NCBI GenBank assembly: GCA_018606645.1
Contig: JAGVRI010000003.1
Coordinates: forward strand, 153,322-217,321
Direction: 5' to 3'
DNA length: 64,000 nucleotides
Origin: Chloroflexota bacterium
GTDB lineage: Bacteria > Chloroflexota > Anaerolineae > JAAYZQ01
Shown here: positions 7,434 through 27,900 of the stretch, piece by piece
Position numbering within the stretch: the stretch's first letter is position 1
How the letters are laid out: the number at the start of each line of letters is the position of its first letter
The notes under the pieces: model-generated
Told to the model about the DNA's origin: nothing
The model's database searches: none
Seen by the model: only the letters and a program-made list of their open reading frames with translations
Translations under genes and position numbers: made by a program

Positions 7434-7646
7434 GGACGCTTCGCTCCACTTGCAGCCGACGCTTGCGTCGGCGCTGACGCGGCTCCGCTACGGGCGGCTC
7501 ATCCGCCGCCCCATTGGGCGGGCAAAAACACGGATAGGTGCAACAAAGCCAGGCAGGGTGCTTCTGCCTTCTGCCGCTCTCTATCGTACGTGTGTTTCAC
7601 CTGGTTCAGATACCGAAGTCAAATCTAGCAATTAAGGAGGTCCTAG
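7434..7646 (+). other. Cassette leader, possible decayed second attC
   Basis: This stretch contains GACGCTTGCGTCGGCGCTGACGC and CCGCCGCCCCATTGGGCGGGC, which resemble pieces of an attC whose core boxes are no longer clear. No gene is supported. It ends with the AAGGAGG ribosome-binding site of the next gene. Confidence 0.35.
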
Positions 7647-11490: not shown

Positions 11491-11768
11491 GACACGACCT
11501 GCCAGAAGTCGAGAGCGGACCGGGCCTCTTCGATCCGCTCGTCCGGGATGCGAATGTAGAGGCCGGTGCCCTCGGCCAGCACGGTGCCGTCGGGCAGCCG
11601 GATCTCGCCGCGGGCCTCATAGGCCCGAGAGCGACTGCGGGTGAGCTCGCCGATGATGGTCAGTTCCTGGTCGAGAGGCACCGGTTTGCGAAACTGGACC
11701 TCCAGGCGACCGGTCATGGCCCATACGTTGTGCAAGGTGAGTACCCGACCCATCGTCTCATCCAGGAA
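11484..11768 (-). pseudogene. Hotdog-fold thioesterase, 3' half only, interrupted by the recombinase element
   Basis: The minus strand reads TFLDETMGRVLTLHN, then MTGRLEVQFRKPVPLDQEL and DGTVLAEGTGLYIRI. This is the second half of a PaaI/4HBT-type acyl-CoA thioesterase, starting at the family's LDExMG catalytic-helix motif. The expected first half (with HGG) is absent; instead the frame runs into the 3' end of the serine recombinase gene, which overlaps it by 40-55 bases. The simplest reading is integration of the mobile element into this gene. The missing half is not in this window. Confidence 0.75.
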
Positions 11769-13429
11769 TGTCCCAAGTCAAATCTACCAGATTCGGTGCC
11801 GTCGAGCACACCGTAGAGCTTGATCTGGCGGTCAGAGTATACCTCTATTTTCTCACACAGGGCGCGTATGATCTTCTGCCGCGCTTTCAGTATGGTATTT
11901 CGGTCGTCTTGCGACATGGCTTTCAATTCTTCGAGTGTCTGGTCGATATCTGGCAACTCGGCCTGGAGCGAGGTCAGGAACTGCGTCGCATAGTCCAACC
12001 CAGATTGCACCTTGGCTGCATTATCTCTCAATTCCGTTAGCCTGTCAAGCTCCTCGCGCCAATGCTGCCGAGCCTTCTCAGTTTCCTCCATCCGTGCGTC
12101 AAACTCCGCTTCAGATATCTTGGCTCTCGCCGCCTGCCGCTGATAGAAGGCCCGTTCCTGGTCAATTTCAGAAAGTCTGAGGCGGGCATGGGCGATCTCA
12201 CCACTCACGCTCTCGCCTTCTGCTCTCAGGGTTTCGACATGTCTCGCGACCTGTGCCCGGATCAGGTCAGGCTGTTTGATCCCGTAGTCCACGATATAGC
12301 GCCAGACGGCCCAATCCAACGTCTCTCCATCCCAGGAGAAGGGGAGGGGATGCGGTTCCTCAGGGTACATGATAGCGTTGACGCAGTGATATCGATGCTT
12401 CGGGATCTTGCGTAGGGTTCGATGGTAGGTTCCATCTGCCACACGGTGGTAGGAATAGTCGCGCGCATTAGTGGACATCAGCCGTCCACACTCCCCGCAG
12501 TGCAGGAGACCCTGCAATAGATACACACCTCTGGCATTCCGAGTTGAGAGCCTTTGGTTGCGCTCCAGTTTGGCCTGCACACGCTGCCACTGCTCAAGGG
12601 TAATGATTTGTGGGATTTCGATGGTGTACTCGTCGCCGTCCGCGAATCGCCACGTAAGGGTGCCTGTGTATTCCTTGGAATTCAGGATATTGTAGATGGT
12701 GGCCGGGTTCCAGCTGTGCAGCCGCTCCACCTGCCTCTTTTGGCCTGCCTGTCGGGCCAACAACCTGTTTCGTAGACGAATGACCGATACACCGCTGTCG
12801 TACCAATCAAAAATATCCTTGACGATTTGAACCTCTTCCTCATTGGCAAGCACGATTCCGCGCCCGCGCTTCCCCGGCTCGCGCACGCATTCGTATCCCA
12901 GACGGATGTAATGACCTGGCCATCGGCCCTGTTGCAGAGTCGCGATCTTGCCCATTTTGGAGCGCTCCACGCGGCGCTTGTTCTCCTCGCGCCAGATGGT
13001 CGCCTTGATGCTCAAAGTGAATCGGTCGATCTCGCCACCTGTGGCATCAATTAGCTTGATTTTGCTTTTGCCGTTTCGCCGAGAATCGCCGATGTCGAGA
13101 GCATCCTCCAAGGCCACAGCCACACGAGGGTGCCTCACCAGGCGGTCGTCACGCCAGCAGAGCGCGGCATCAATCTCCCCAGTTTTCAATCGTTCTAGCA
13201 TAGCCAGCAGGCCAGGTCGATCTGCCCGTTCACCCGAAGGATTGACAATCTTGCCTTTGTTCGGTGCTTGAGTTGCCCGATAGTTCTCGCAGTCGACAAA
13301 TGTTTCCACGATGTTCCAGTCCATACGCTCGCAAAGCGCTCGCATGTCGGCAAGCTGCTGTTCGATGCTGACGCTCTCGCCCTTTGCTTGTTCTTCGCTG
13401 CTCACTCTTGCGCTCAGAACCACATTCAT
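11714..13429 (-). CDS. Large serine recombinase (site-specific integrase)
   Basis: This 571-aa enzyme cuts and rejoins DNA at att sites through a serine. It has an N-terminal resolvase domain with ARVSS (nucleophile Ser10) and the arginine segment WRDDRLVRHP, then a recombinase domain (about residues 170-290), a zinc-ribbon segment LLHCGECGRLM...YHCVN, and a C-terminal coiled coil (about residues 410-520). The last dozen codons lie in the host thioesterase gene, as happens when an integrase gene abuts its own attachment site. The start ATG 13429 follows AAAGGAG. It is the last gene of the minus-strand element. Confidence 0.93.
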   Translation of the reverse strand: MNVVLSARVSSEEQAKGESVSIEQQLADMRALCERMDWNIVETFVDCENYRATQAPNKGKIVNPSGERADRPGLLAMLERLKTGEIDAALCWRDDRLVRHPRVAVALEDALDIGDSRRNGKSKIKLIDATGGEIDRFTLSIKATIWREENKRRVERSKMGKIATLQQGRWPGHYIRLGYECVREPGKRGRGIVLANEEEVQIVKDIFDWYDSGVSVIRLRNRLLARQAGQKRQVERLHSWNPATIYNILNSKEYTGTLTWRFADGDEYTIEIPQIITLEQWQRVQAKLERNQRLSTRNARGVYLLQGLLHCGECGRLMSTNARDYSYHRVADGTYHRTLRKIPKHRYHCVNAIMYPEEPHPLPFSWDGETLDWAVWRYIVDYGIKQPDLIRAQVARHVETLRAEGESVSGEIAHARLRLSEIDQERAFYQRQAARAKISEAEFDARMEETEKARQHWREELDRLTELRDNAAKVQSGLDYATQFLTSLQAELPDIDQTLEELKAMSQDDRNTILKARQKIIRALCEKIEVYSDRQIKLYGVLDGTESGRFDLGHSWMRRWVGYSPCTTYGP

Positions 13430-14111: not shown

Positions 14112-15116
14112 TTACCCAACCCGGCGGACACTGGTCTGAGCACCTAACCGGACGGCAAAGCGCCAGTAGCCCAAGGCGTTGGCGAAGACGGGGTTTTCCA
14201 CCGCCCGCACATGGGGGAAGGCCCGGGTTAGGTAAGGTTTCAGCAAAAGAGCACCGCCGCCGGCCAGGAGGATCGCTTCCAGCCCAGCCGCGCCATTCCA
14301 CAGTTGCGTAGCCAGGGCAATGACCTGGTCGGCCATGGGTTCCAGCGTCGCGTCGATCACGTCGCCCAGGTCAACGTCAGTTCCAAAGTACCTCATACGG
14401 CGTTTGACGATGGCATCGATCACCTGGTGATCGCGCAGTTCAAGACTAGGACAATAGTCTGTCAGGTGCTCTCGCACTGCCCGCGCTACATCCCAAGCTC
14501 CCAGATTGATACTTGCTGTCTCCCGACCGATCTCGGCCAGGCGATTGACACTCAACAGATTTGTGGTTTTGCCGCCGATGTCGATGACGCCCACTGCCCC
14601 AGTGGCGAGATCCTGGTTTACGATCCTACCTTGGTCGTTCAGCGCCTCGGCGAGCAACGCCCCAAACGGCTGGGGGATCACTCGGCACTCGGTCACCAGG
14701 AAGGTCTGCGCCCGGCGACCTTCTCTGACCACCCTGTGTTGTCCCAGGAAGCGATCGCGCAGGGCATCCTTGTCGGCTGAGTAAAAGGCCACCGGCAAGC
14801 CAGTCACCACCACCAGCTCACACCAGGCGGCTGCAGTGACCTCAGTGAAACCGGCCAACATGAGCCGGCGATAGGCGTTGCTGACGATCCAGTCCCGATC
14901 CTCCCGTCGGTCTACGAATCGGCTCTGGCTGATGGCTCCTTCCCCGACGAGCCAGCTCTTTTCGCCGGGCAGGTTGATGATGATGTGCCGATCTGTGCTG
15001 TTAACAGCGAATCGAGCTCGATCCGGGGTGCCCACCACGGAAGGGAAGGTCACTAAGCGGTCAGGGCCTGCTACGGCTTTTACGGAGCTGTAACCGATGT
15101 CGATTCCTACATTCAT
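14112..15116 (-). CDS. ParM/StbA-type actin-like plasmid segregation ATPase
   Basis: ParM-type proteins polymerise with ATP to push plasmid copies apart. The 334-aa product starts MNVGIDIGYSSVKAV (phosphate 1 loop), has GVIDIGGKTTNLL (phosphate 2) and LAGGGALLL (adenosine loop) in the actin order, and ends in an alanine-rich helix. ATG 15116 after AGGAG is the correct start; an upstream in-frame ATG at 15194 lies within the regulatory hairpins. It is most like the broad ParM/StbA family seen on plasmids and phages of Gram-positive and environmental bacteria. It is followed by the ParR-like gene. Confidence 0.88.
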   Translation of the reverse strand: MNVGIDIGYSSVKAVAGPDRLVTFPSVVGTPDRARFAVNSTDRHIIINLPGEKSWLVGEGAISQSRFVDRREDRDWIVSNAYRRLMLAGFTEVTAAAWCELVVVTGLPVAFYSADKDALRDRFLGQHRVVREGRRAQTFLVTECRVIPQPFGALLAEALNDQGRIVNQDLATGAVGVIDIGGKTTNLLSVNRLAEIGRETASINLGAWDVARAVREHLTDYCPSLELRDHQVIDAIVKRRMRYFGTDVDLGDVIDATLEPMADQVIALATQLWNGAAGLEAILLAGGGALLLKPYLTRAFPHVRAVENPVFANALGYWRFAVRLGAQTSVRRVG

Positions 15117-15149
15117 GCCTTTGCTCCTATCTTCTGGAATTCGGACAAA

Positions 15150-15187
15150 AAAGCAGCCAACCGTTGCCCACTGGCGAAACGGTTGGC
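15150..15187 (-). terminator. Hairpin with T-run in the parM leader (terminator or attenuator)
   Basis: A perfect 10-bp inverted repeat (15156-15165 with 15178-15187, GCCAACCGTT/AACGGTTGGC) is followed, in the minus direction, by TGCTTTTTTG. It lies 40 bases upstream of the parM start. A weak minus-strand promoter (TTGCTA at 15228-15223, 17 bases, TATGTC) lies upstream of it, so the hairpin may attenuate parM transcription. Confidence 0.55.
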
Positions 15188-15194
15188 CGCTCAA

Positions 15195-15689: not shown

Positions 15690-16544
15690 CTATCCAGTTT
15701 TCTCCTTTTTTGGAAACTCACGTTCGTAGTTCAGTAGAGTACGACCGGTGATATTGTAGTTCGACTGCGCCCACTGGTCTTTGTTCTCAATGAGGCCCCT
15801 GTCTCGAACCGCGCGATAGTGTTCCACGATCTTGCGCCGCTTGCCAGGCGAGTAAGCATAGCGGTCGCTTTCTGCCGGCAAATTATCCTGGCGGGGTTCT
15901 GTCGCAGATTTTTCCCTGTCTGATTCACCCAGCAACTCGCTGGCAGTCCTCTCGCTCTGTGTTTCTATGCCATTGCGAAACTCTGCATCCTGGCGAACAC
16001 AGCCTGGCTGCTGAGTATCGCCTGCGGAGCACAATATCCGCACTAGCTCCTGCGGGGAGCAGTAACTCGCAGCTCTGTGAACCGCTTGCGAGAACGTGCC
16101 CAGGGCCAGTCGCCTCTCGACCGGTCCGCCAGTGACCATGACCGGAGCGGTGCCTTGAATCAGAGATAGCAACGTTTCTTGGGACCAGAAACGGCGTGCC
16201 ACTTTGGCGGCAGAGACAAACCGGCTGACAGCTTTGACCGCCTGTGGCGATGGCGGCTGCCAGTCCAGCCTGGTCAACCGCCGAACCGCACCCAGACGCC
16301 CGATTCCCAGTCCGGGGATGGACAGAAGCGTCCAATCCGATGCCTTGTCTACTTCCTCCAGATTGCTGTAACCGGCCCGCGCCAACTTGCGCAGAGCAAC
16401 TGCAGCCGAATGCCCATCGCTCGTAGCCATGGCTTGGGCTAGTTCGTAAAGCACATTATCTTTTTCACCAATTGCCACCTGTTCCTCCGCTTGCGCCTGA
16501 AGTGTACTATCCCTGACCGTCTTTCGTTTCCATCGGCCAAACAA
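15690..16544 (-). CDS. Hypothetical protein with helix-hairpin-helix-like segment, 284 aa
   Basis: The N-terminus is basic (MFGRWKRKTVRD). At about residues 68-85 the segment SDWTLLSIPGLGIGRLGAVRRL looks like a helix-hairpin-helix DNA-binding turn. A long polar linker rich in Glu, Ser and Gln (about 175-225) leads to a C-terminal basic helical domain (SPGKRRKIVEHYRAVRDRG then NYNITGRTLLNYEREF) that resembles a winged or simple HTH. It is probably a DNA-binding protein of the plasmid-like element. Not assigned to a family. Confidence 0.6.
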   Translation of the reverse strand: MFGRWKRKTVRDSTLQAQAEEQVAIGEKDNVLYELAQAMATSDGHSAAVALRKLARAGYSNLEEVDKASDWTLLSIPGLGIGRLGAVRRLTRLDWQPPSPQAVKAVSRFVSAAKVARRFWSQETLLSLIQGTAPVMVTGGPVERRLALGTFSQAVHRAASYCSPQELVRILCSAGDTQQPGCVRQDAEFRNGIETQSERTASELLGESDREKSATEPRQDNLPAESDRYAYSPGKRRKIVEHYRAVRDRGLIENKDQWAQSNYNITGRTLLNYEREFPKKEKTG

Positions 16545-16620
16545 GTATACGCTACCGGATCAGGCATGTCAACGGCAAAAACTGCAGACCATATTCCTGA
16601 ATTTATGCAGCCAAATGTGC

Positions 16621-16650
16621 ATTTTTCCCGGAGTAAAGACTGCGGAAAAT
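16621..16650 (+). promoter_or_regulatory. Dyad upstream of the operon promoter, candidate activator site
   Basis: ATTTTTCCCG (16621-16630) and GCGGAAAAT (about 16642-16650) form an imperfect inverted repeat 16-45 bases upstream of the -35 box. That is where a NarL/ComA-type dimer would bind. Only the position and symmetry support this. Confidence 0.3.
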
Positions 16651-16665
16651 ACGGGGGTCTTGCCC

Positions 16666-16694
16666 TTGACCGTCCTGCTGATGTGTGCTATGAT
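16666..16694 (+). promoter_or_regulatory. Sigma70 promoter of the peptide-signalling operon
   Basis: TTGACC (16666-16671), 17-base spacer, TATGAT (16689-16694). The first gene starts about 37 bases after the expected transcription start. Confidence 0.7.
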
Positions 16695-16738
16695 GTGTGG
16701 CGTTGTGCACCTGCCGAGTCTGCACCGTGGGAGCTTGA

Positions 16739-17368
16739 GTGATCAAAGTAATCGTTGCCGATGACCACCCCCTGACACGGGAAGGAGTAAAGAAGGCCCT
16801 GGAAGAGAAGAGGGATATCAAGGTGGTAGGCGAGGCCGGAACCGGCCCTGAACTTGAGGCTGCGCTGGCCCGTGTGCCGGACGTTCTGCTCCTGGACATT
16901 CGCATGCCCGAGTTTGATGCCATCGGACAGGTGCCTGAGCTCCGGACTCGATTTCCTGGCATGAAGATCGTCATCATGACAGCGTACGAGAGTGAGTTCT
17001 ATGCGCAGGCGTTGATCGGACACGTAGATGGCTACCTCCTCAAGGTGGAGCGCATGGACGCCTTTGCCACTGCCGTGCAGGAAGTTAGCAAGGGAAGAAA
17101 GTACTTCACCGACCGTGCACTGAACCTGGCGTTCAATAGCCCGGAAGTTCCCAAGCTTTCCGAACGAGAGACAGAGGTGTTAAGGCTGGCAGCCCGTGGG
17201 CTCAAAACAACTGATATCGCCCAGGAGCTGTTCATCTCGACTCGAACGGTGGACACCCACATCCAGGATGCCTGTCACAAGCTCGGCGTGCGCGGTCGCA
17301 CGGCAGCCGTGGTAAAGGCCATTGAACTGGGATTGATCTCCGCCGGGGTAAGGGAAGACCCGACGTGA
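16739..17368 (+). CDS. NarL/FixJ-family response regulator (ComA-like)
   Basis: This 209-aa transcription factor has a receiver domain (acidic pocket Asp8-Asp9, phospho-acceptor Asp53 in LLLDIRMP, Thr81, Lys102) and a LuxR-type HTH (about residues 140-200, LSERETEVLRLAARGLKTTD with the recognition helix STRTVDTHIQDAC). The start is GTG 16739 after GGGAG. Its stop overlaps the next start by four bases. The histidine kinase four genes downstream is of the HisKA_3 class that pairs with NarL regulators, so they are the likely cognate pair. The role corresponds to ComA in ComQXPA systems. Confidence 0.92.
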   Translation: MIKVIVADDHPLTREGVKKALEEKRDIKVVGEAGTGPELEAALARVPDVLLLDIRMPEFDAIGQVPELRTRFPGMKIVIMTAYESEFYAQALIGHVDGYLLKVERMDAFATAVQEVSKGRKYFTDRALNLAFNSPEVPKLSERETEVLRLAARGLKTTDIAQELFISTRTVDTHIQDACHKLGVRGRTAAVVKAIELGLISAGVREDPT

Positions 17369-18225
17369 GCGCCAGGTCCGCAGGCCAAGCGGCAAGACAG
17401 GGCAAAGCCAAGTATGCGTGGCGCGTCGCCGGTTATTTCGCCCTGCTGACTGTCCTCAACACTGTTACCTTTGAGATCGAGGGCGCCACCTCTTCTTTTC
17501 TCCCATCTTGGTCAAGTGTTCTGTTGGAAGGCCTATTCTACTTGACTGCCACGCTGGCTTTGACCTGGGCCTTCTGTCGCTTCCTAGACCGGGGTTCCGT
17601 CAGTCAGATCGGTCTGCGCAGGCGTCGATGGTTCGCCTATCTAGGCGCAGGGCTGGGCCTGGGGGCCTTGCTGATCATCCTGGTCTTTGCGGCGCTCTGG
17701 ACAGCCGGCTGGCTCACAGTCGATCGCGGCGATAACTGGCAGTCACCCGTGTTCGTCGCCTCGGTGCTGACCTGGATCGCCATCAGTTTTGTGGAGGAAC
17801 TCAGCTTCCGGGGTTACATTATGCAGGGTCTCGCCCGGGCCTGGGGCATGCCTGTCGCCGTGGTCGTGTCGTCCGTGCTCTTTGGTGCCGTGCATGCACT
17901 CAATCCCAACGCCAGCGTCTCGGGTGTCCTTAACATCATCGTCGTCGGGCTACTGCTGGCCTGCGCGTACCTTGTCAGCAGGTCCTTGTGGCTACCCGTG
18001 GGGCTGCACATCGGTTGGAACCTGGTCGAGGTCCACGGGTTGGGCTTTCCAGGATCGGGGCACACCGAGCCCTCCATTCTGCAGACTACCACCCGCGGGC
18101 CGGAACTGGTGACGGGGGGCGCTTTTGGCCCCGAAGGTGGCCTCGTGGCCCTCGCAACCACGCTTCTGGGAATTACTATGCTGCTCATCGGCTACCGGGT
18201 GGCCGTTGGAACAAAGAAATCGTAA
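17365..18225 (+). CDS. CPBP-family intramembrane glutamic/metalloprotease (CAAX protease-like)
   Basis: A 286-aa protein with about seven hydrophobic segments. All three family motifs are present: EExxxR (Glu144-Glu145...Arg149 in VEELSFRG), FxxxH (Phe173...His177) and HxxxN (His215...Asn219 in HIGWN). The family includes the eukaryotic Rce1 protease, which trims prenylated CAAX proteins, and bacteriocin-processing or immunity proteins. It is translationally coupled to the response regulator (4-base overlap), and the small peptide gene follows 24 bases later. Processing or export of that peptide, or self-immunity, is the natural inference. Confidence 0.9.
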   Translation: MSARSAGQAARQGKAKYAWRVAGYFALLTVLNTVTFEIEGATSSFLPSWSSVLLEGLFYLTATLALTWAFCRFLDRGSVSQIGLRRRRWFAYLGAGLGLGALLIILVFAALWTAGWLTVDRGDNWQSPVFVASVLTWIAISFVEELSFRGYIMQGLARAWGMPVAVVVSSVLFGAVHALNPNASVSGVLNIIVVGLLLACAYLVSRSLWLPVGLHIGWNLVEVHGLGFPGSGHTEPSILQTTTRGPELVTGGAFGPEGGLVALATTLLGITMLLIGYRVAVGTKKS

Positions 18226-18249
18226 AACGAAACGGAGGCAAAGAAAAAG

Positions 18250-18486
18250 ATGACAGACAACGGATTGTTAGAGTTCGCACGCCGGCTCGTCGTAGATCGC
18301 GATTTCAGGGAGCGGTTCTTGATCGCTCCACAGGACGTCTTGGCCGATTTTGGGATTCCGGTCGAGACATGCAGGGCATTGGCGGCAGTCATGCCTATCT
18401 TGCTCGCAGGCAACATTGTTCTCATGGATCCTTCGTTGGGCGACCCAGCAAGCAATGGTTCTGTGGTAGGCTGGGGGCGGGGTTAA
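18250..18486 (+). CDS. Candidate prenylated signal-peptide precursor (ComX-like), 78 aa
   Basis: ATG 18250 follows CGGAGG. The N-terminal leader (residues 5-47: LLEFARRLVVDRDFRERFL, then PQDVLADFGIPVETC) is a short helical domain like those of ComX or NHLP-type RiPP precursors. The C-terminal 25 residues are small and Gly/Ser-rich, ending NGSVVGWGRG with a single Trp at position 75. ComX pheromones carry the prenylated Trp within a few residues of the C-terminus, as here. A prenyl synthase homologue and a membrane kinase follow. A ComX assignment is inference; an unrelated RiPP precursor is the main alternative. Confidence 0.7.
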   Translation: MTDNGLLEFARRLVVDRDFRERFLIAPQDVLADFGIPVETCRALAAVMPILLAGNIVLMDPSLGDPASNGSVVGWGRG

Positions 18487-18563
18487 AGACGGATGGGATG
18501 CCGAGAAGTCAAGTAGAGGCTGGCGAGGTGCCCCGTTCACAAAGGTGACCGGCAGCTTCTGTC

Positions 18564-18583
18564 AGCCCTGCGCAGGGCTTTCA
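18564..18583 (+). terminator. Weak terminator/attenuator between peptide and prenyltransferase genes
   Basis: AGCCCTG (18564-18570) pairs with CAGGGCT (18573-18579) and is followed by a short TTTC run. A partial terminator here would let the peptide mRNA exceed that of the downstream enzymes. Confidence 0.35.
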
Positions 18584-18599
18584 TAGGAGTGCGCTGGCC

Positions 18600-19547
18600 A
18601 TGCATGAACACGTGGAAAGAGTCCACCTGATTATCGGTGCTGGGCTGACCTTATGCACCGTAGAACGCTTTCGCGAGGCGCTCCAGCCCGTGTTGCATAG
18701 CAGGCTGGCTAGAGGGGACAAGGGCGTGCCCTGGTTCATGCTACCCATTCTCACCTGCGAGGCGTTGGGTAAAGACTTGGAGCCCGCCTATCACGTGGCC
18801 GCCGGGCTGGAGATCGGCCGGATCGCTGCTGGTTGCCTGGATGAATGGCAGGATCACGACACCGAAGACGCGCTGTGGCGGGCCATCGGGCCGGAGCGAA
18901 CCGTCAGCCTGGCTGTGGGAATGATCGCTCTCTCGCTGCTGACTCTTGTCCACCTTGCCGACCTGGGAGCGGAGCCGGCGCTGGTCCTCGCCCTGCAGCG
19001 AGAATTTCAGGTGACCTTGTTGCACATGAGCGAGGGCCAGTATGTAGACCTGGGCGATGACCTGTCCTTGGAGGACTACGAAACCGTGGCTGGGGCCAAG
19101 ACTGGCGCCCTGTTCCGCCTTGGCTGCCGTGCGGGGGCGGTGGTCGCCGGCGCCTCGGCGGAGATTGTCGGATGCTACGGCGATTTTGGGTACAACCTGG
19201 GCGTTCTTGCCCAGGTCTGGAACGACGTCTTTGGGTTGGCCGGTGTCCAGGGGAAAAACGACGCCGAACACCAGCGGGCGCTGCCCATCCTGGCGACGCA
19301 AGCTGTGGCTCAGGGTCTCGAAGGAACCGGGGACCGGCGCCAATCCGGCGATGGGCTGGCAGGGCAGTTATACACTGTGCTGCAGCTTGTTCTCCTCTAC
19401 CAGCGCGCGTCCGAAGCGTTGGCCAGATGCCCGGCCTCCGGGGGCCTGTCGCGCTTTCTCGACGAGTACGACCCTGGCCGCCTAGCCGAGATGATGGGAC
19501 AGCCCCGCACACAGCACGAAGACGATCATGAGCCGCAGGCTGTTTGA
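18600..19547 (+). CDS. ComQ-like isoprenyl synthase/transferase homologue
   Basis: A 315-aa all-helical protein of the polyprenyl synthetase fold. The first Asp-rich motif is replaced by LDEWQDHDTED (residues 80-90), the KTG segment (Lys167) is present, and the second motif reads LGVLAQVWNDVFG (Gln205...Asn208-Asp209) rather than the canonical FQxxDDxxD. ComQ proteins, which attach geranyl or farnesyl to the Trp of ComX, likewise have degenerate motifs. It follows the peptide gene and overlaps the kinase gene by 20 bases. Alternatives are a catalytically changed terpenoid synthase. The ATG at 18600 follows TAGGAG. Confidence 0.75.
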   Translation: MHEHVERVHLIIGAGLTLCTVERFREALQPVLHSRLARGDKGVPWFMLPILTCEALGKDLEPAYHVAAGLEIGRIAAGCLDEWQDHDTEDALWRAIGPERTVSLAVGMIALSLLTLVHLADLGAEPALVLALQREFQVTLLHMSEGQYVDLGDDLSLEDYETVAGAKTGALFRLGCRAGAVVAGASAEIVGCYGDFGYNLGVLAQVWNDVFGLAGVQGKNDAEHQRALPILATQAVAQGLEGTGDRRQSGDGLAGQLYTVLQLVLLYQRASEALARCPASGGLSRFLDEYDPGRLAEMMGQPRTQHEDDHEPQAV

Positions 19548-21939
19548 CCAAGACTCCCGGCGGCAGATCGCCATGCAGGCCCTGCTGGTGTTGGGACTTG
19601 TCACTTTCGTGGGCGGAGCTGTGGTCTTTTTCTATCAGGCCTCGCTGCCCTACACCGGGTTCGAGTTCAGCGGCGAGTCAGTTGTTGGGGCTGTCGCTCC
19701 CGAAGGCCCGGCAGCCGCAGCGGGGCTCCAGGTCGGTGACCGGATCATGACCATTGATGGGCTATCGCCCATGTCGTCCGGTGAGATCTATTTGCGGCCT
19801 GGCAAAAGTGCGTTGCAGTTGGCAGTGGCGCGCGATGGGCGAACCTTGTTCCTGGAGCTGGATCTCGCACCGCCATCCCTACGTACCGTCCTGGACAAGG
19901 CCGGCTATTTTTTCATGGCTCTGGGTTTCTGGACCATCGCCATGTTGGTCCTCGTCTTCAAACCAAAAGATTCGGTCGCCCAGTTCTTTGTGTTGCTTAC
20001 CCTGTTGGGCACGGTAGTGGTCGTCATCTGGCGTATGGCCGACCTGGGCGCGCTGTGGGCCAATCTGTTGATGGGCATCCTGGCCTCAGTGATCGGCCCG
20101 ATGTTCGTCCACTACCATACCCTCTTTCCTGAGCGCATCCAATTCAAGGGCAAGGGCATACTGCTCGGATTCCTTTACGGCCTCGGCGCCGCGCTCGCCC
20201 TGCTGTCGCTGGCCTTGGACGCGCTCTACTACACGGGGCTCTACCGGCATATTGGGTCCGATCCCTGGCCCTCGGCAGCAGTGGCTATCAAAACCTACTT
20301 CTCGGCCTGCTTGCTCGCCGGCCTGGTATTGTTGGGGCGCACCTACCGGGTCACTTCCTCGGAACGGAGCAAGCGGCAGATCGCCCTGGTCGCCCTGGGC
20401 AGTGCCCTGGCTTTGCTGCCCCTTGTCGTTCTGATCCTGGTTCCCCAGATCCTGTTCGCCCTCTACCTGGTCCCCTCCTGGATCCCGCTCCTGATGCTGG
20501 CCTTCATCCCGGCCAGCTATCTCTATGCCACCTATCGCCACGATCTGATGAGACTGGACCGTGTAGTCAACCGCAGTGTCGCTCTCTTCTTCCTGGGGCT
20601 GGTTCTGCTCAGCCTCTACCTGGGTCTGGAATGGGTTATCCGGTCGCTGCTACCCGACTCCCGTCCCTTGCCGGTGACGCTGGGTAACGTCATCCCGGTC
20701 CTCGTCCTGCTCTTTGCCTTCCAGCCCCTGAAACGCCAGATCGAACGCCTGGTCGATCACCTGTTCTACGGCGGCTGGTACAACTATGAGAGCTTTACCC
20801 TGGAGATGTCCCGCTCACTCAACGAGGCAGTGGACCTGGAGACAATCGTGACTTTGCTGACCGAGGACGTGGCCCAGTCGATGCGGGTAAAGGAGATCGC
20901 GCTGTTCCTGCCCAATGGGAAGGACGTTTTTCGCGTACGAGCGAGCAGGGGGTTTGACCTGTCGATCGCCGCCTGCCCGACAAGGGGGCTGATCGACTTT
21001 CTGCGGGGATACGGGAAACCGATCGAGCACGGATTGCTAAGCGAACGACTGCACTCCGAGCCGCGAGTGGGCGATGAGATCGCAGCCTTTACCCATGCCG
21101 GGATGCAGATGTGGGTCCCCCTGGTGCAGCAGGGCGAACTGGAAGCGATCCTGGTCTTGGGGAACAAGGTGGCCGACGAGTTCTACACGCGGAACGATCA
21201 CGCCATCCTGTTCACCCTCGCCCAACAGGCAGCCATTGCCCTGGCCCGCGCCCGGCTGGTCGAGGAACTCCAGGGCCGGCTGGGTGAGGTGCAAGCCCTT
21301 TCCCAACAGCTCCTTGCGTTGCAGGAGAGAAATCAACAACGGATGGCGTTCGAGCTGCATGACCAGGCGGTGCAGGACCTGCTCTTTGTCCGACAACTAC
21401 TGGACTCGGCGTTGGGGGAGGCGGCACCAGCCAAGAGGATCGAGGGCGCCCGCGATGAACTGTTACGTATCGTTGGCTACCTGGATACTTTGATCTTCGA
21501 ACTGCGGCCGCCGGAGCTAGAGCGAGGTGAGCTGGGGCCGATCCTGAACAAGTACGCCGTCAACTTTCAGAAGCGGCGCGATTTGCCCGTGGTGTTCCAG
21601 GCCAACGGCAGCAGCGACGGTGCTACGATCCCGGAAGAGATCAAGCTCGCCGTGTACCGCATCTTCCAGGAGAGCCTGAACAATGCCCGCAAGCACGCCG
21701 AGGCAAACCGGGTCGAAGCGACCTTGGACGTGCAGCCTGACTGCGTGCGCCTGGAGGTCCACGACGATGGGGTTGGGTTTGAGGTGCCCGCCCACCTGGG
21801 CGGCTGGATCGATGCCAACCGGCTGGGATTGCTCGGCATGCGGGCGCGGGCAAAGGAGCTGGGCGGTGACCTGAAGGTGATCTCGCGGCCGGGCCACGGC
21901 ACGGGGATCGTCGTCAGCATACCGCTGCGGTCGACGTGA
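19528..21939 (+). CDS. Membrane sensor histidine kinase with PDZ domain (ComP-like)
   Basis: 803 aa. One membrane span (about residues 15-36) precedes an extracytoplasmic PDZ domain (about 50-112, APEGPAAAAGLQVGDRIMTI). About eight further spans run to residue 395, then a GAF-like domain (about 430-585), a HisKA_3 domain with phospho-His611 in AFELHDQAVQDL, and a HATPase domain with an N box (ESLNNARKHAEAN), DDGVGF and GLLGMRARA. A polytopic sensor with HisKA_3 matches ComP of the ComX system, and the NarL regulator upstream fits as its partner. It overlaps the ComQ-like gene, which implies coupled translation. Confidence 0.93.
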   Translation: MSRRLFDQDSRRQIAMQALLVLGLVTFVGGAVVFFYQASLPYTGFEFSGESVVGAVAPEGPAAAAGLQVGDRIMTIDGLSPMSSGEIYLRPGKSALQLAVARDGRTLFLELDLAPPSLRTVLDKAGYFFMALGFWTIAMLVLVFKPKDSVAQFFVLLTLLGTVVVVIWRMADLGALWANLLMGILASVIGPMFVHYHTLFPERIQFKGKGILLGFLYGLGAALALLSLALDALYYTGLYRHIGSDPWPSAAVAIKTYFSACLLAGLVLLGRTYRVTSSERSKRQIALVALGSALALLPLVVLILVPQILFALYLVPSWIPLLMLAFIPASYLYATYRHDLMRLDRVVNRSVALFFLGLVLLSLYLGLEWVIRSLLPDSRPLPVTLGNVIPVLVLLFAFQPLKRQIERLVDHLFYGGWYNYESFTLEMSRSLNEAVDLETIVTLLTEDVAQSMRVKEIALFLPNGKDVFRVRASRGFDLSIAACPTRGLIDFLRGYGKPIEHGLLSERLHSEPRVGDEIAAFTHAGMQMWVPLVQQGELEAILVLGNKVADEFYTRNDHAILFTLAQQAAIALARARLVEELQGRLGEVQALSQQLLALQERNQQRMAFELHDQAVQDLLFVRQLLDSALGEAAPAKRIEGARDELLRIVGYLDTLIFELRPPELERGELGPILNKYAVNFQKRRDLPVVFQANGSSDGATIPEEIKLAVYRIFQESLNNARKHAEANRVEATLDVQPDCVRLEVHDDGVGFEVPAHLGGWIDANRLGLLGMRARAKELGGDLKVISRPGHGTGIVVSIPLRST

Positions 21940-21956
21940 GGTATGGAGAACGCGTG

Positions 21957-22997
21957 ATGAAGGTTGCCATCGTCGGGGCTGGGCCGGCCGGTTGTCACCT
22001 GGCCCGCCTCCTGGCCAGCTCCGAGCACGGAATTCTTCTGTTCGACCATCGCGCCCCCTACGAGAAGCCGTGCGGTGGTGGCCTGAGTCCTCTGGTCGGC
22101 CAACGCTTTCCGGAAGTGATGGCCCTGCCCTTCCCGCGACACCAGCCATCGAGGGTCGTTCTGCGAGCGTCGGATGGTAGCCAACTCGAGCAAACCCTCG
22201 ACCCCTCCCACTGGGCGATTGTCTCGCGGGCGGCCCTCGGCCAGGCGATGCTCGAATGCGCCCTGGCGAACGGCCGAGTGCGCCATGTTCGGCAGCGGGT
22301 GACCGGTGTAAAGCGAGCCGGAAGAGGATGGTCGGTGTGCACTGCCTCGGGTAGCACGTTCCTCGCCGATTTCGTTGTTGGCGCCGATGGCGTGCGGAGC
22401 CTGGTCCGCCAGGAGGTGGTAGGACCAATCCCCCGACAGCACCTGAGCCTGGCTGTCGGTTACCGGGTGCAGGGCGCGCCGGACGCTGTGGTGTTTCAGA
22501 CCTATGACGACCTGGATGGGTATCTCTGGTCCTTTCCCCGGGCGGATCATGCCAGCGTGGGCATTGCTACTCGGCTGGGCGCCGTACCTCCGCAGGAGCT
22601 ATGGCAGCGGGTGGATCGGTTCCTAGACCAGGTCTGCCTGGAGGCCGCCAAGCGGGATCGTTACTCGGCCCTGTTACCGATAGCCTGGGACGCAAGCCTG
22701 TGGGACAGCCCCTGCGCAGGGCCAGACTGGGCCCTGCTGGGTGATGCGGCCGGCCATGTGCATCCGCTCACCGGCGAAGGGATCGGTTATGCGCTCTGGT
22801 CGGCGGAGCTATTGGCCGAGGCCCTCGCACGGGGAACCCCAGAGAGCTATGAGAGCCTGTGGCGAGCAGAGTACGGAGCTGTGTTTTTGGCTGCGAACGC
22901 TCTGTTGTCGAGCACAAGTTGGGACGAAGGGGCTTACGAGCTTGTGTTCCACTTGGTGATGGCAATGGCTCTGCAAAGTCCTGGTCAGGCGCACTGA
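21957..22997 (+). CDS. Geranylgeranyl-reductase-family FAD-dependent oxidoreductase
   Basis: A 346-aa flavoprotein with an N-terminal dinucleotide fold (VAIVGAGPAGCHLARLL), the family-specific YEKPCGGGLS loop, the VVGADGVRS motif and a C-terminal GDAAGHVHPLTGEGIGYAL. Members reduce double bonds in geranylgeranyl chains of chlorophyll, archaeal lipids and quinones. ATG 21957 follows GGAGAA, 17 bases after the kinase stop, so it is the last gene of the operon. In this setting it could saturate the prenyl group of the peptide signal. That step is not known for Bacillus ComX and is my inference. Confidence 0.85.
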   Translation: MKVAIVGAGPAGCHLARLLASSEHGILLFDHRAPYEKPCGGGLSPLVGQRFPEVMALPFPRHQPSRVVLRASDGSQLEQTLDPSHWAIVSRAALGQAMLECALANGRVRHVRQRVTGVKRAGRGWSVCTASGSTFLADFVVGADGVRSLVRQEVVGPIPRQHLSLAVGYRVQGAPDAVVFQTYDDLDGYLWSFPRADHASVGIATRLGAVPPQELWQRVDRFLDQVCLEAAKRDRYSALLPIAWDASLWDSPCAGPDWALLGDAAGHVHPLTGEGIGYALWSAELLAEALARGTPESYESLWRAEYGAVFLAANALLSSTSWDEGAYELVFHLVMAMALQSPGQAH

Positions 22998-23011
22998 CTG
23001 GGGTGCGGCCC

Positions 23012-23257
23012 AATCGAGCTGGGCGTGTCGCATATCTTCCAGAAGAGCCTGAACAATACCTCCCAGCACGCCAAGGCGAAACGAATCGAAGGCACTCCAG
23101 GCGTGCGGCCTGACTGTATGCACCTGGATCGATGCCAGCCGTCTGGAAGTGCTCGGCACGCAGGCGTGGGCAAAGGAACTGGGTGGGATCTGAAGTGATC
23201 TCGCGGCCGGGCCACGGTACGGGGGTCCTCGTGAGCGCATCTCTGCCGCCATCTTGA
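23012..23257 (+). pseudogene. Decayed duplicate of the histidine kinase ATPase domain
   Basis: This segment aligns along its length with the 3' end of the kinase gene (about 21640-21939): GTCGCATATCTTCCAGAAGA against GTACCGCATCTTCCAGGAGA, and GGATCGATGCC and TCTCGCGGCCGGGCCACGG are shared. About 55 bases are missing; the break lies between two CTGGA repeats and removes the DDGVGF nucleotide-binding box. Frames are broken. It marks an old tandem duplication after which the flavoprotein gene came to lie between the copies. Confidence 0.8.
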
Positions 23258-23364
23258 CACAGTGGGCCTGTTGGGCAGTACGCTGTCCGGCATTTGTCTT
23301 GATGCTGCCGCCTCAAGGAATAGAGCTATCTCCTCTCCCCTCTTTCGTAAGTTTACATTTGACT

Positions 23365-23393
23365 TTGCCTTTTGGTCTAGGCCGTGGTATAAT
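23365..23393 (+). promoter_or_regulatory. Promoter of the BREX operon
   Basis: TTGCCT (23365-23370), 17 bases, perfect TATAAT (23388-23393). About 185 bases of leader precede brxA. Confidence 0.65.
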
Positions 23394-23445
23394 TAATTAA
23401 CGATATAAGCGCCCATGGCTGATTGGCAGCTTGAGGCGTGGCCGG

Positions 23446-23520
23446 GGTGGATGGGGCACCCTGTGGTTCCAACGCGCCACGCTGGCCCATCCACCACAAG
23501 CGGATGGGCTATCTCGTTTT
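23446..23520 (+). promoter_or_regulatory. Leader with two mutually exclusive hairpins (possible attenuator)
   Basis: GGTGGATGGG (23446-23455) can pair with CCCATCCACC (23486-23495). Alternatively CCCATCC (23486-23492) pairs with GGATGGG (23502-23508), followed by CTATCTCGTTTTCTT. The second fold looks like a terminator and the first would prevent it. Confidence 0.4.
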
Positions 23521-23579
23521 CTTGAATGCGAATTGCCCCCGCAACCATGCTGTTGGCTGGCAGAGATCTGATTTCATCA

Positions 23580-24377
23580 ATGAGAAGTTCGAACTCAATA
23601 TATAGCAGCAGCATCTCTGGCAAAGGGGCTCTCATTTCTGAAGCCAAGGCGATCTTGCGCGAACTGGACCATGGGCTTGAACCGATTGCGGTCAAGCGCA
23701 TGGTGCTTCATGATAACTTATTGGGCAGACAAACCCTCAGAGCCCGTGAAGCAGTATGGGATCTCTTGCATCTGCGCTACGTCGGCGGTCGCTCCCAGGA
23801 ATTCGTAACCGCGCTGGCCCGGATGGTTACCCATAGCCCGAATGAAGCAGCGGCGAACCTGGTTCTTTTCTACGAGCTCTGCCAGGTTGATCCGCTACTC
23901 TATGATCTCACGACTGGCTGTACGTACGAACTGTATCACAGCGCCCGGACAACCATCGATAAAGTGGACGTCGAGCAGTGGCTGGTGGCACAAGAGCCCA
24001 GCCACCCGGAGATTGCAGCCTGGTCGCCACAAACCCGGGGAAAGGTGATCAGTAGCTATCTTGCCATCATTCGTGACTTTGGCCTAGTAAGAGGCGTTCA
24101 ACAGAAAAGCTTTCACAAGCTCTTCATGCCGTCCGAAGCTTTTCTTTATGTCCTTTATCACCACAAAGACCGCGGGCTGCCAGTCAAAGCGATCATCCAA
24201 TCTCGAGATTGGCGACTGTTCCTGATGACCGAAGACGAGGTGGTGTTCCTTATGGAAGAGGCAGCGCGAGATGGCTTTGTGCGTTTTCGTCACTCTGGGG
24301 ACATCTATGATTTAGGGTTTGTCTATTCAAACCTTCGCGAGGTGGTCGATGCCATCGTTGGCAGAAAAGTTCGCTGA
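23580..24377 (+). CDS. brxA: BREX protein BrxA (DUF1819)
   Basis: A soluble 265-aa protein with the family's N-terminal motif YSSSISGKGALISEAK and a helical body ending in a C-terminal winged-helix-like part. BrxA is a small DNA-binding core protein of BREX phage-defence systems. I place the start at ATG 23580 because homologues begin just before this motif; an upstream ATG at 23547 is possible, and neither has a strong ribosome-binding site. It is the first gene of the operon and overlaps brxB. Confidence 0.9.
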   Translation: MRSSNSIYSSSISGKGALISEAKAILRELDHGLEPIAVKRMVLHDNLLGRQTLRAREAVWDLLHLRYVGGRSQEFVTALARMVTHSPNEAAANLVLFYELCQVDPLLYDLTTGCTYELYHSARTTIDKVDVEQWLVAQEPSHPEIAAWSPQTRGKVISSYLAIIRDFGLVRGVQQKSFHKLFMPSEAFLYVLYHHKDRGLPVKAIIQSRDWRLFLMTEDEVVFLMEEAARDGFVRFRHSGDIYDLGFVYSNLREVVDAIVGRKVR

Positions 24378-24909
24378 ATTGGAGAGGCTGCTCCTGGAAC
24401 AACGTCGCACACTAGCCCTTCATGCGGGCGTACCCTTTGTGCTGCTGGTCTATGATCCATTTCAGGAGGAGATCTGCCGGGAAGAACAGGCTCATCTGAA
24501 AGACAAGCTCTTGGATGCGGGGCTGATAGTCAGCGAGATTCGGTTAGAGACATTTGTCTTTGACTGGTATGCAAAAAAGGGGCTGCTTGAGAAGATATTT
24601 GAGAAAGAATCCCAACAACCCCAGGACGTCCACCGGGATCTGGCCAAGAATTACCGCCCCGCCCTGGCTCAGCATGTCATCCAGGTGGCCCAGGATCTGG
24701 AGGACCAGGACGCCGTCCTGATGCTGACTGGCGTCAGCCACCTCTATCCCTTTGTCCGAGTGGCTAACCTGCTGGAGGACTTGGAGAACCAGGTCAAGGT
24801 CCCGTTGGTTGTCTTTTATCCCGGTGAGGAACTGGACAGCGAGTTGCGCTTCCTGGGTCTTCAAAACTCGGATGGCCCCCACTCCAAGTACCGGGCGCGG
24901 AGAATATAG
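24349..24909 (+). CDS. brxB: BREX protein BrxB (DUF1788)
   Basis: 186 aa from ATG 24349 (GAGGTGG just upstream), overlapping the end of brxA by 29 bases. The segments VPFVLLVYDPFQEE, ETFVFDWYAKKG and LMLTGVSHLYPFVRV are the recognisable DUF1788 blocks, and KVPLVVFYPGEEL is close to the family end. BrxB is an essential BREX component of unknown activity, thought to bridge BrxC and PglZ. brxC begins three bases after its stop. Confidence 0.92.
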   Translation: MPSLAEKFAELERLLLEQRRTLALHAGVPFVLLVYDPFQEEICREEQAHLKDKLLDAGLIVSEIRLETFVFDWYAKKGLLEKIFEKESQQPQDVHRDLAKNYRPALAQHVIQVAQDLEDQDAVLMLTGVSHLYPFVRVANLLEDLENQVKVPLVVFYPGEELDSELRFLGLQNSDGPHSKYRARRI

Positions 24910-24912
24910 ACG

Positions 24913-27900
24913 ATGACGAAAATCAAAGAGCTTTTTGTCCATCCTATCGATCGCGAGATCACGACCGTCATCAAGATGGATGACCTGCGCGTGACCGAAA
25001 TTGAACAAGAGCTATCGGAGTATGTTGTCACCGATGCAGTTGAAGAGTTACTGATCCAGTTTCTGGAACGTTATGCTGAAACCCGTACAGCCAAGACGGA
25101 CAAGATCGGCGTCTGGATATCGGGCTTTTTTGGGTCAGGCAAGTCTCATTTTGCCAAGATCCTGAGTTATCTGTTGGAGAACCGGCAGGTAAACGGCCAG
25201 TCAGCGGTGAATCTCTTCAGACTGCGCATTGCCGGGAGCTCGCGCCAGAGGGAGATCGATCAGCTCCTGCACCAGGTTACCAGCTTTATCGACAGCCAAG
25301 TCATCGCCTTTCAAATCAAAACGGAAGAGGACCTGTTGGCGCAGGTAGCCACCGAACGAGAAGCAGCGGCCGGTAATCACATCTCAACGATCATGTACCG
25401 CCAATGGCTGAAGAAGCGAGGCCTCAGTACGACGTTGTGGATTGCCCGCCTGGAGTTGGAGCTGATTAATCTCGGGTTGTATGACGCCTTTCAGGCCAGT
25501 GTTCAGGCCTTGGAGGGCAGGCCTTGGAGTGAGGTGCGTGCGCACGACATGCTGGTTCGAGATGCAGCGGTAAACGCTCTGTGCGCCATCATGCCCAGGC
25601 GCTACAACAACGTAGCCCAGGCATCGAAGGCCCTGGACGACATCCAGGCCGGACTGCAAATGGGACCCTCCGTCCTGACGGAGGAACTGGCCGCCTGGGT
25701 AAATGGGAGACGGATACCAGGCTCAGAGAAGGTACCCCACCTAGTCTATATCATCGACGAGATGGGGCAGTTTATCGGCGACAGCAACGACAAACTGCTG
25801 GAACTGCAATCCATTGCTGAGGCCTTTGCCAGCAAGGGGTTGGGCAAACTGTGGCTGGTGGTCACCGCCCAGGAAGCCTTGGAAGAGATAGTCCGAGAAG
25901 CCATTCACCGTGAGAACGAGTTCGACAAAATCCGGGATCGGTTTAACCTGCGCCTGGACCTGACCTCGGAGAACATCGAAAAGGTGTTGGAGGAACGCAT
26001 CCTGAAGAAAAAAGAGGCCAAACGTGGGGAACTCGAGGGTCTCTACCGCCAAGCCGAAGGCAACATCGGCATCGTGTGCAGCCTGAGCGGTGCCGGCCGT
26101 CCACTGCCCATTCCGGACATGGATCGCTTCGTGGCCGACTACCCCTTCCCACCCTACCAATTGGCCATCCTGCAGCAGATCTTTGCCGCCGTCCGTACAC
26201 CCAGCGGCGAAGCGCAAAAGATCGAAGGCACCGAGCGGAGCCTGATCGGGGTTACCCAGGCCATCCTCAAGTCGCCGGAAACCGGCTTTGCCACCTCTCC
26301 GCTGGGCCGGCTCGTGGCCCTGGACGAGGTCTATGACCAGATCGAAACAGAACTGCCAAGTATCGACCGGCGGACCATCGCCGAAGTTGCCATCCCGCCA
26401 CACCCGACCTTCCTCAAGCGTATCCTAAAGGCTCTCTATCTGATTCAGAAGCTACCTTGGATACCGTGCACCCCTGAGAACCTGGCCCGCCTGCTGGTGA
26501 CCCACGTGGATGATCCGCGCACCCCGTTTGCCGATTTTCGCGGGCAGATAGAGGAAGGTCTGCAACTCCTGGCCGATGGCCAGTACGTGGTGGAGCGCGA
26601 TGGCCAATACGAATTCCTCTCCGGAGTCAAGAAGGACATCGAGCTGGAGATCGCCGCCGTCAAGGTCACAGTCAACGACCGGCGGCGGGAGGTGAAAAAG
26701 TACCTGCGCACCGTGCTGGACATTGGTCGGCTAAACTACGAGGGAGTGCGTACTTTCGACGTGCAGGTGCGGGGGGATGATGATCTCATCTATGCCAAGG
26801 GCGAGATCACATTGCAGGTTTATTCTCCCGTCTACACACGCGCCACGGAGCTCGATCGCGACGAGGTGGAACGACGAAGCCTCAGCGATGACCGGACGGT
26901 CTACTGGTATCCGGCACCGTCCGATGAACTATATCGCGAGTTGGCAAGGCTGATTCAAACCGAGGCTGTGGTTACCCGGCGCATGGGAAAGCGGGACAAA
27001 AGCTCTGACGAAGAGGGCATCCTGCGCCAGAAACAGCGCGATGTGGACAATGCCAAAGCTAAGGTCCAACTGCTGCTGCGCCAGAGCCTGTTAGCTGGGG
27101 CGATCATCTACAACGGCGAGGTGCGCGAGTTGGAAGGTAAAACCACCCACCTGAACACCGTGTTTACCCGGGAGATGGCGCGCGTGATCCCGCACGTATA
27201 CACCCGCTTCGAGCCGGCTGCGGTCAAGGTGTCAGAGAAGAGCATCGCCGCGTTGCTGACCGCCCAGGATACGCAACTGACGGACATCGAGCCAGAGTTA
27301 CGCCTCTTTGACGATAGTCACCGACTGAACCGCCACTCGCCAGTGGTGATCGAGGTCCTAGAGGAATTGCGCCTGCGCGCCCGGGCAGGCGATCCACGAG
27401 ATGGCAAAACACTGAGCGACTTTTTCGAGTCGGTGCCCTATGGTTGGGACCCCATCCTGGTGCGTATCGTGCTGGCTGCGCTGTTCCGCGCCGGCATTGT
27501 AAGCCTGAAGCATGAAGGAAAAGTGTACCATGATTACAAAGCCGGGCGGGCACAGAGCCTGCTGACCCGGGCGCTGGACTTTCGCAAGACCGAGTTCCTG
27601 TACGACCCCCAGGAGAGTCTGACGCCCGAAGAGCGGAAAGCGGTCCAGAAGGCCATCGATCTCATCTTCAACCGGCGTGAGCCGGATACGGTCAACATCA
27701 TGGACACCGTTTTGCGGGAGGAACTCGATGCTCTGCAGAAGCGCAATGCCGAACAGCGCATCCTGGCCGAGCAGAGTGCCCTGCCGGTCAACCCCATTCT
27801 CGAGGAGGGTGGTTTACGGATCGCTGACATTCTCGAGCTTGCCCAACCAGACCGTCGTCTGAAAGTCTTTTTGGAGTACAAGGACACGTTCCGAGACTTG

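Follow-up and report, generated by a model that had tools for sequence, protein, structure and literature searches.

Gene content of the operon

The window analyzed here, a stretch of 64,000 nucleotides from the genome of a Chloroflexota bacterium, carries at positions 16739-22997 six open reading frames (ORFs) on the plus strand whose products point toward a peptide signaling system of the ComQXPA/PalXQP kind. The first gene (16739-17368) encodes a NarL/FixJ-type response regulator (Response_reg, 1.4e-17; GerE, 1.6e-17) that would take the role of ComA, and it is followed by the gene of a CPBP/Rce1-type intramembrane protease (17365-18225; PF02517 [Rce1-like], 3.8e-20). The third (18250-18486) encodes a precursor peptide of 78 amino acids (aa) with an NHLP-like leader and a tryptophan, Trp75, fourth from the C terminus (...SVVGWGRG). 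Next come a polyprenyl_synt protein (18600-19547; PF00348, 1.2e-13) of the Trp prenyltransferase type, in the role of ComQ or PalQ, and a receptor histidine kinase in the role of ComP (19528-21939), composed of a first helix, a PDZ domain, nine more membrane helices, a GAF domain, the histidine H611, and an HATPase domain. The last gene (21936-22997) encodes a geranylgeranyl reductase (GGR)-like flavoprotein (TIGR02032, 4.7e-42, under the cut-off), a predicted tailoring enzyme. Overlaps of 4 bases join regulator and protease as well as kinase and flavoprotein, the synthase-type gene and the kinase overlap by 20 bases, and the remaining gaps measure 24 and 113 bases. An earlier note on this DNA had described the same six genes on one strand, in the order A-protease-X-Q-P-reductase with the regulator first, and the coordinates as well as the Pfam and NCBIfam matches agree with it. 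A homologue of the peptide on another contig (P0122) and the clustering of peptide, synthase, and kinase kin in other genomes argue that the operon is more than a chance arrangement. The host genome (G000) comprises 4.27 Mb in 32 contigs and is 91% complete; two homologues of the prenyltransferase-type enzyme, P0058 and P0110, are Anaerolineae proteins by NCBI naming. Chloroflexota as the phylum is well supported, and Anaerolineae is the probable class.

The prenyltransferase-type enzyme

Ordinary trans-prenyl diphosphate synthases hold isopentenyl diphosphate (IPP) and diphosphate with a GKxxR motif and an RR pair behind the first aspartate-rich motif (FARM). The window enzyme has a FARM (DEWQD, residues 81-85, with Asp81 and Asp85), a glutamine (Q205), and a pseudo form of the second aspartate-rich motif (SARM; N208-D209) and is devoid of both GKxxR and RR, as befits the degenerate prenyl synthase that the earlier note had seen in it. 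Q205, N208, and D209 are invariant among 59 aligned enzymes (that of the window and 58 homologues), and DD is often retained at the SARM in other groups of these enzymes, here called Q-type. All Q-type rows of our motif table are without GKxxR (its region being uncovered in L048 and L119) and without the RR pair, and all canonical rows have both, as does the other synthase of the window genome, a canonical paralogue (L002). L043, set with the Q-type enzymes by its long N-terminal extension, has canonical motifs and was counted as canonical. In a tree of 74 rows, made by a quick method without bootstrap and with several long branches, one branch parts 48 Q-type from 26 canonical enzymes with a Shimodaira-Hasegawa-like approximate likelihood ratio test (SH-aLRT) value of 99; the tree contains neither L013, the partial L048, nor four duplicate rows, and P0111, a protein to which one source gives the name ComQ, is on the Q-type side. 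L013 (Streptomyces) was one of three relatives found when genome contigs were scanned with an alignment and was dropped since it carries ordinary motifs; a scan of these contigs with the window enzyme as a single sequence found no relative. Judged by motifs and tree, the window enzyme is no ordinary synthase and groups apart from the Chloroflexota geranylgeranyl diphosphate synthases compared.

The structure model of the enzyme has an isoprenoid-synthase fold (predicted local distance difference test [pLDDT], 88.5; predicted template modeling score [pTM], 0.87). Its neighbors in the PDB are ordinary synthases mixed with the Trp farnesyltransferase Ord1 (PDB 9v4g-9v4j), so that the fold alone cannot settle the type of enzyme. 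Ord1 acts on free Trp and is 18-20% identical to the window enzyme in fold alignments; it has the same fold and a conserved Gln before the SARM (PMC13290415). ComQ likewise keeps the FARM and, in the SARM, only the second Asp, which is critical (PMC5331326), and a 2026 review assigns ComQ, ChrPC, and PalQ to this enzyme class and describes all three as Trp specific (PMC13290415). An ordinary or degenerate short-chain prenyl diphosphate synthase, working with the GGR on a lipid or quinone side chain beside an incidental small ORF, would fit the PF00348 match, the isoprenoid-synthase fold, and the GGR-like gene in the operon. However, the IPP-binding motifs are lost in the whole clade, which forms a separate branch, an ordinary synthase and two GGRs above the family cut-off are encoded elsewhere in the genome, and a precursor family is conserved near the enzyme, all of which makes this explanation very improbable.

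In a search of plasmids with P0111 as the query, an orphan ComQ-like gene was found on a plasmid of Priestia megaterium (L128:4836-5843), next to which neither a kinase nor a Trp-ending peptide was seen. A Streptomyces plasmid gene among the plasmid matches listed adjoins terpene synthases. P0111 also gave matches in a phage collection.

The precursor peptide

The peptide ends in GRG behind Trp75, and its sole database homologue in a single-sequence search, P0122 (63% over 100%), keeps the Trp and ends in ...AIGWGRGP. In an alignment of 26 precursors of the family, some of them first picked with a Trp filter, the Trp is the only invariant column. A database search with this alignment, whose profile contains the Trp column, gave 54 proteins, 52 of which contain a Trp among their last 30 residues; the remaining two look truncated or frameshifted. 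To avoid the bias of the Trp filter in the earlier picks, from which part of the alignments A3 and A6 derives, the leaders were also searched with the core removed. In 43 loci, a profile of ten leaders matched 23 ORFs at E<=1, and a Trp follows the leader in 23/23, with eight of them being training sequences and that of L063 (E 0.85) probably a chance match. At E<=0.1 and with three loci added, a Trp is present in the tail of all 12 nontraining matches, compared to 5.5 expected; the product of 3e-5 obtained from this test ignores shared ancestry. The earlier note had made its reading depend on a conserved Trp in homologous operons, and such a Trp is indeed present. Around it, the sequence is variable: mean entropy is 1.25 in the last seven columns versus 0.53 in the first fifty (25 sequences) and 1.00 versus 0.41 in a second group (18 sequences), with P0142, P0155, and P0160 omitted, and the entropy of the Trp column is zero in both groups. 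A constant Trp within a changing tail is also the pattern of ComX pherotypes.

Most precursors found with the leader profile directly precede the enzyme; the L011 precursor is encoded behind the regulator, and of the two in L108 one is a gene further away. In some kin of the window peptide, for example, P0134, P0152, and P0154, the Trp is terminal. The leader profile matches L012, L061, and L106 only weakly (E 4 to 10), Trp-ending small ORFs outside the leader-profile matches are present in L110, L111, and L113, and L060 begins at a contig end. Several precursors have tandem cores after one leader, namely, four PAGGPNGPWGWQFMSE-type cores in L047, three cores related to these in L048, five HASGPNGPWDWQFGSRDV-type cores in L053, and, up to an assembly gap, six EGPFPGWQGMELA-type cores in L059. 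Tandem cores are not known from ComX or PalX precursors. As a separate observation, L108 has two different leader-type precursors (6654-7025 and 7471-7872) before one Q-type enzyme; its host belongs to the same family as the window genome, and no second genome of that family appeared among the matches shown.

The membership in the ComX family that the earlier note had suggested for a profile search did not emerge: the window peptide has no match to PF05952, and its leader resembles the NHLP/Os1348/Franean1_4349 kind. Among the 26 kin, PF05952 matches two (E 0.05 and 0.058; 13.9 and 13.7 bits, with a cut-off of 25), and in a set of 100 relatives it gave 35 weak matches, none above the cut-off, with the Bacillus subtilis control also below it. 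Of the NHLP-clan models, NF038399 matches 19/26 precursors at E<=0.1, TIGR04509 matches 14/26, and PF14407 matches 12/26; furthermore, 27 of the 54 database homologues have PF14407 in their precomputed annotation. The leaders of the Franean1_4349/Os1348 families (PF14407 and NF038399) are alike to those found here, and the model descriptions name no modifying enzyme; a literature search under the name Franean1_4349 found nothing. Homology of NHLP and ComX leaders was considered and rejected, with one B. subtilis ComX scoring no better against the leader profile than its own shuffles (744 of 1566 scored shuffles were as high). The best PF14407-like match of the window genome (1.5e-4, under the cut-off) is not the operon peptide and lies inside a 321-aa frame (L093; G000:C8:5434-5613).

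The receptor kinase

The kinase matches HATPase_c (1.2e-12), PDZ_6 (1.9e-7), and GAF (3e-6) in Pfam. H611, D612, and Q616 are invariant among 26 aligned kinases, and HisKA_3 is found above its cut-off in the kin L045 and L100. In the AlphaFold2 model (pLDDT, 82.7; pTM, 0.60), a helix (residues 3-38) is followed by PDZ-like elements (45-112) and nine long helices reaching to residue 414. BaComP has been modeled with ten membrane segments, the PDZ domain lying between segments one and two (PMC9620489). As far as these models go, the window kinase shares the architecture of ComP, and the resemblance to ComP that the earlier note had seen in a PDZ-containing polytopic kinase is borne out with ten helices and the PDZ domain after the first.

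The sensor is also found with other outputs. In L125 (4213-7503) a sensor of this family is joined to PAS, HisKA, HATPase, and receiver domains and thereby forms a hybrid kinase, and in L126 (9505-11751) the sensor type of the window kinase is joined to GAF and HD-GYP (PF13487, 3e-43), with no kinase match. Both receptors lie directly behind a Q-type enzyme, and a leader-type precursor, ending in ...LFWL and ...DWWWS, respectively, lies before the enzyme; the L125 precursor is identical to P0150, a protein named Dehalococcoidales. Features of such systems that appear to be new are the tandem-core precursors, with three to six or more cores, and the coupling of a single sensor type to kinase, hybrid-kinase, or HD-GYP outputs. 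Family sensors with no Q-type enzyme in flanks of ~1.5 kb occur in L135-L144, L146, and L149-L152 and may be eavesdroppers or sensors of other ligands.

Distribution in Chloroflexota

A receptor of the window kinase family lies directly downstream of the enzyme on the same strand in 30/35 Q-type loci (the window and L126, with its sensor without a kinase domain, included) and in 0/25 canonical loci. A receptor was counted if the homologue had an E<=1e-15, started at -200 to +500 bases from the enzyme end, and the downstream sequence was at least 1 kb long; loci with less than 1 kb (Q-type L047, L057, L106, and L110 and canonical L039 and L127) were omitted. The figure of 30/35 is inflated since alignment A4 consisted largely of kinase-linked enzymes; the first 20 regions were ranked with alignment A2, made from close window homologues alone. 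The five misses are L050, L055, L103, L111, and L113. In L103 a partial kinase frame flanks the enzyme on its other side, L113 has kinase kin on the opposite strand, and in L111 the next frame (120 aa) resembles, by eye, the N terminus of the kinase.

One may ask whether the Q-type enzyme prenylates the kinase, the regulator, or another protein rather than a small peptide. The receptor gene directly after the enzyme in most loci would fit such a target, as would the loci L050, L051, L055, L107, L109, L112, and L114, which are without a recognizable precursor. However, all characterized enzymes of the class modify Trp (PMC13290415), and among the residues of the aligned precursors only the Trp never varies; a target other than the peptide is therefore hardly to be expected.

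With the Q-type profile at E<=1e-60, at least 28 places in at least 24/396 genomes were found in the class sample, 17 of the 28 being rows of the model itself and 11 being new. The phylum sample (E 1e-56) gave at least 7/400 genomes, namely, the window's own, two with Q-type enzymes (G632 and G695), and four with canonical ones. These counts are lower bounds, with at most 5 candidates scored per genome. In the one-contig genome G430 (L134), peptide, Q-type enzyme, and sensor are found together, and the precursor of G695 is identical to P0150, whose Dehalococcoidales name was given by NCBI. From the counts in both samples and from G430, the system is patchy yet extends beyond the class. To judge from these sequences, the core gene set recurs across Chloroflexota and is no oddity of one host. 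A census of 9,590 prokaryotic genomes from 2014 reports comQXPA-like loci from Firmicutes alone among the phyla (PMC4008528), and a study from 2022 mentions the kinase-regulator pair in Chloroflexi (PMC8895600). Apart from the latter, none of the papers listed by our literature searches, which reached few subscription journals, showed such peptide signaling in Chloroflexota. The earlier note had placed the host outside the usual range, which agrees with the census, but the host is not a single one. In a genome of 8 Mb (G021), five Q-type enzymes are encoded on separate contigs (L051, L052, L061, L110, and L111).

Protease and reductase

The protease has hydrophobic segments and the three CPBP motifs, EELSFR, FGAVH, and HIGWN. 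The flavoprotein scores 144.7 bits against the NCBIfam model of the geranylgeranyl reductase family (cut-off, 158.8 bits). It is divergent and one of three such proteins in the genome; being the only one under the cut-off fits a dedicated role. Both additional enzymes of the earlier note are present in the operon, but as general partners of the system they were rejected: CPBP was found only in L049 and GGR in none of the other Q-type stretches. L049 has a sub-cut-off M50 match in addition to CPBP, and L058 has M50, an ABC ATPase, and a radical S-adenosylmethionine (SAM) protein.

Relation to known systems

Two published systems have to be compared. With ComQXPA, the operon has in common the four roles on one strand, a regulator with receiver (REC) and GerE domains, a PF00348 enzyme with FARM and a pseudo-SARM in which the second Asp is kept, a Trp near the C terminus, a PDZ/ten-helix HATPase kinase, and variable tails. 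ComX is described as having the Trp within 5-10 residues of the C terminus of a precursor of 52-73 aa (PMC4008528), in most strains as the third or fourth residue from the end (PMC5331326); W75 of 78 is at such a position, in a precursor a few residues longer. In contrast to ComQXPA, the peptide is outside PF05952, the order is A-protease-X-Q-P-reductase, with the regulator not last, and the kinase contains GAF. PalX/PalQ/PalP of Paenibacillus alvei combines an NHLP precursor with a Trp prenyltransferase and a kinase (PMC10853753), and the operon shares with it, in one cluster, a precursor with a conserved Trp and a putative NHLP-type leader, a predicted Trp prenyltransferase of isoprenoid-synthase fold, and a histidine kinase. 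It differs in the Trp, which is fourth from the end here and C-terminal in PalX, in the regulator inside the operon, in the extra CPBP protease and GGR, and in the phylum. Since the leader is NHLP-like and the peptide lies outside the ComX family, PalX/PalQ/PalP is the closest published relative found. Hence, the ComQXPA-like logic proposed in the earlier note stands as the overall reading, but this nearest relative had not been named there.

In sum, the operon probably encodes a signaling system in which a peptide predicted to be prenylated on Trp75 would be read by the PDZ/ten-helix kinase. Its gene content makes it most likely a variant of the ComQXPA/PalXQP type that is spread through Chloroflexota and would work like ComQXPA, with a precursor nearer to PalX than to ComX. 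Several observations weigh against this conclusion. PalQ requires a terminal Trp, and C-terminal extensions abolish its activity (PMC13290415), while the window peptide has a GRG tail. The matches of the window peptide to the NHLP-type models are under their cut-offs (NF038399, E 0.0016; PF14407, E 0.0026), PF05952 does not match it, and a recognizable precursor is missing from the seven Q-type loci listed above and effectively also from L063. The tree of the enzymes has no verified ComQ or PalQ row, and fold and sequence searches of the PDB do not separate Trp prenyltransferases from ordinary synthases. The HisKA_3 match of the window kinase (0.0058; 17.6 bits) is below the cut-off of 24. A wider sensor search gave 26 matches, 20 of them given as loci, and with the window's own set aside, 15/19 have no Q-type enzyme within flanks of ~1.5 kb. 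Finally, no exporter gene is found among the six genes of the operon.

Proposed signaling pathway

In our model, the precursor would bind the prenyltransferase through its NHLP-like leader, by analogy to PalX and PalQ. Asp81 and Asp85 of the FARM would bind the prenyl diphosphate through Mg2+, and the former IPP pocket, from which GKxxR and RR are gone, would take up the indole of the Trp with Q205 and N208/D209. We predict that the CPBP protease cleaves the precursor, and the trimmed peptide would then be secreted. The mature tail around ...VVGWGRG may reach the PDZ domain and the membrane sensor, whose architecture is that of the structure model, and phosphate may then pass from H611 to the NarL-type regulator. 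It is imaginable that the GGR-like flavoprotein reduces the prenyl chain.

RiPPs (ribosomally synthesized and posttranslationally modified peptides) with NHLP-type leaders are often antimicrobial, and the product could be a prenylated NHLP-class bacteriocin or another secreted metabolite, with kinase and regulator serving as an autoinduction or self-sensing switch and not as a quorum sensor of other behaviors. The leaders resemble those of NHLP/Frankia_peptide precursors, and the multicore precursors as well as the ABC, M50, and radical SAM genes beside L058 would also be in line with a bacteriocin. However, one receptor family directly after the enzyme is a coupling like that of ComQXPA, the tails vary around the fixed Trp as in pheromone types, and neither an exporter nor an immunity gene was recognized in the operon. 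We consider the bacteriocin unlikely, although it is the rival to be taken most seriously, and prefer the prenylated signal peptide.

A broader picture, which we regard as possible but rather doubtful, would be a phylum-wide modular family of prenyl-Trp pheromones with a shared core, in which tandem-core precursors release several pheromones, the sensor feeds varied outputs including HD-GYP, and the window reductase saturates the prenyl tail. If so, a lipidated peptide would set the level of cyclic di-GMP directly via the HD-GYP receptor, without a phosphorelay, and the reductase-saturated prenyl tail of the window variant would represent a pheromone class not seen before. Chloroflexota are common filament and biofilm formers. 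ComX and PalX, the two known Trp-prenyl systems, would be linked through one receptor architecture. In any case, the loci supply concrete precursors, modifying enzymes, and receptors, among them many candidate Trp prenyltransferases, some of which lie beside repeated-core precursors.

Operon borders and surroundings

Upstream of the regulator gene, a feature at 16666-16699 contains a promoter-like TTGACC-17-TATGAT (16666-16694, plus strand), found by consensus match only, and the start at 16666 in the earlier note fits it. It is weak, since the 3 promoter-like sites in 16400-23530 barely exceed the 1.7 (standard deviation, 1.2) in shuffles. Two copies of TGATGTGTG (16679-16699, plus strand) belong to the same feature. 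At the other border, a terminator-like hairpin lies at 23269-23292 (plus strand), with 4 such hairpins found compared to 5.2 expected in shuffles, so that it has no support from the statistics. Between the flavoprotein gene and this hairpin, a decayed partial copy of the 3' end of the kinase gene (23013-23257, plus strand) has 76-86% identity, with a gap, to pieces of 21640-21939 and indicates that the locus once underwent a duplication.

The BREX genes brxA, brxB, and brxC (padloc matches) are located at 23526-28554 and start ~230 bp past the terminator-like site. Upstream, a large serine recombinase (11714-13429) and an ALP-type actin-like protein (14112-15194) are encoded on the minus strand, both of which hint at a mobile or plasmid-derived segment adjoining the operon.

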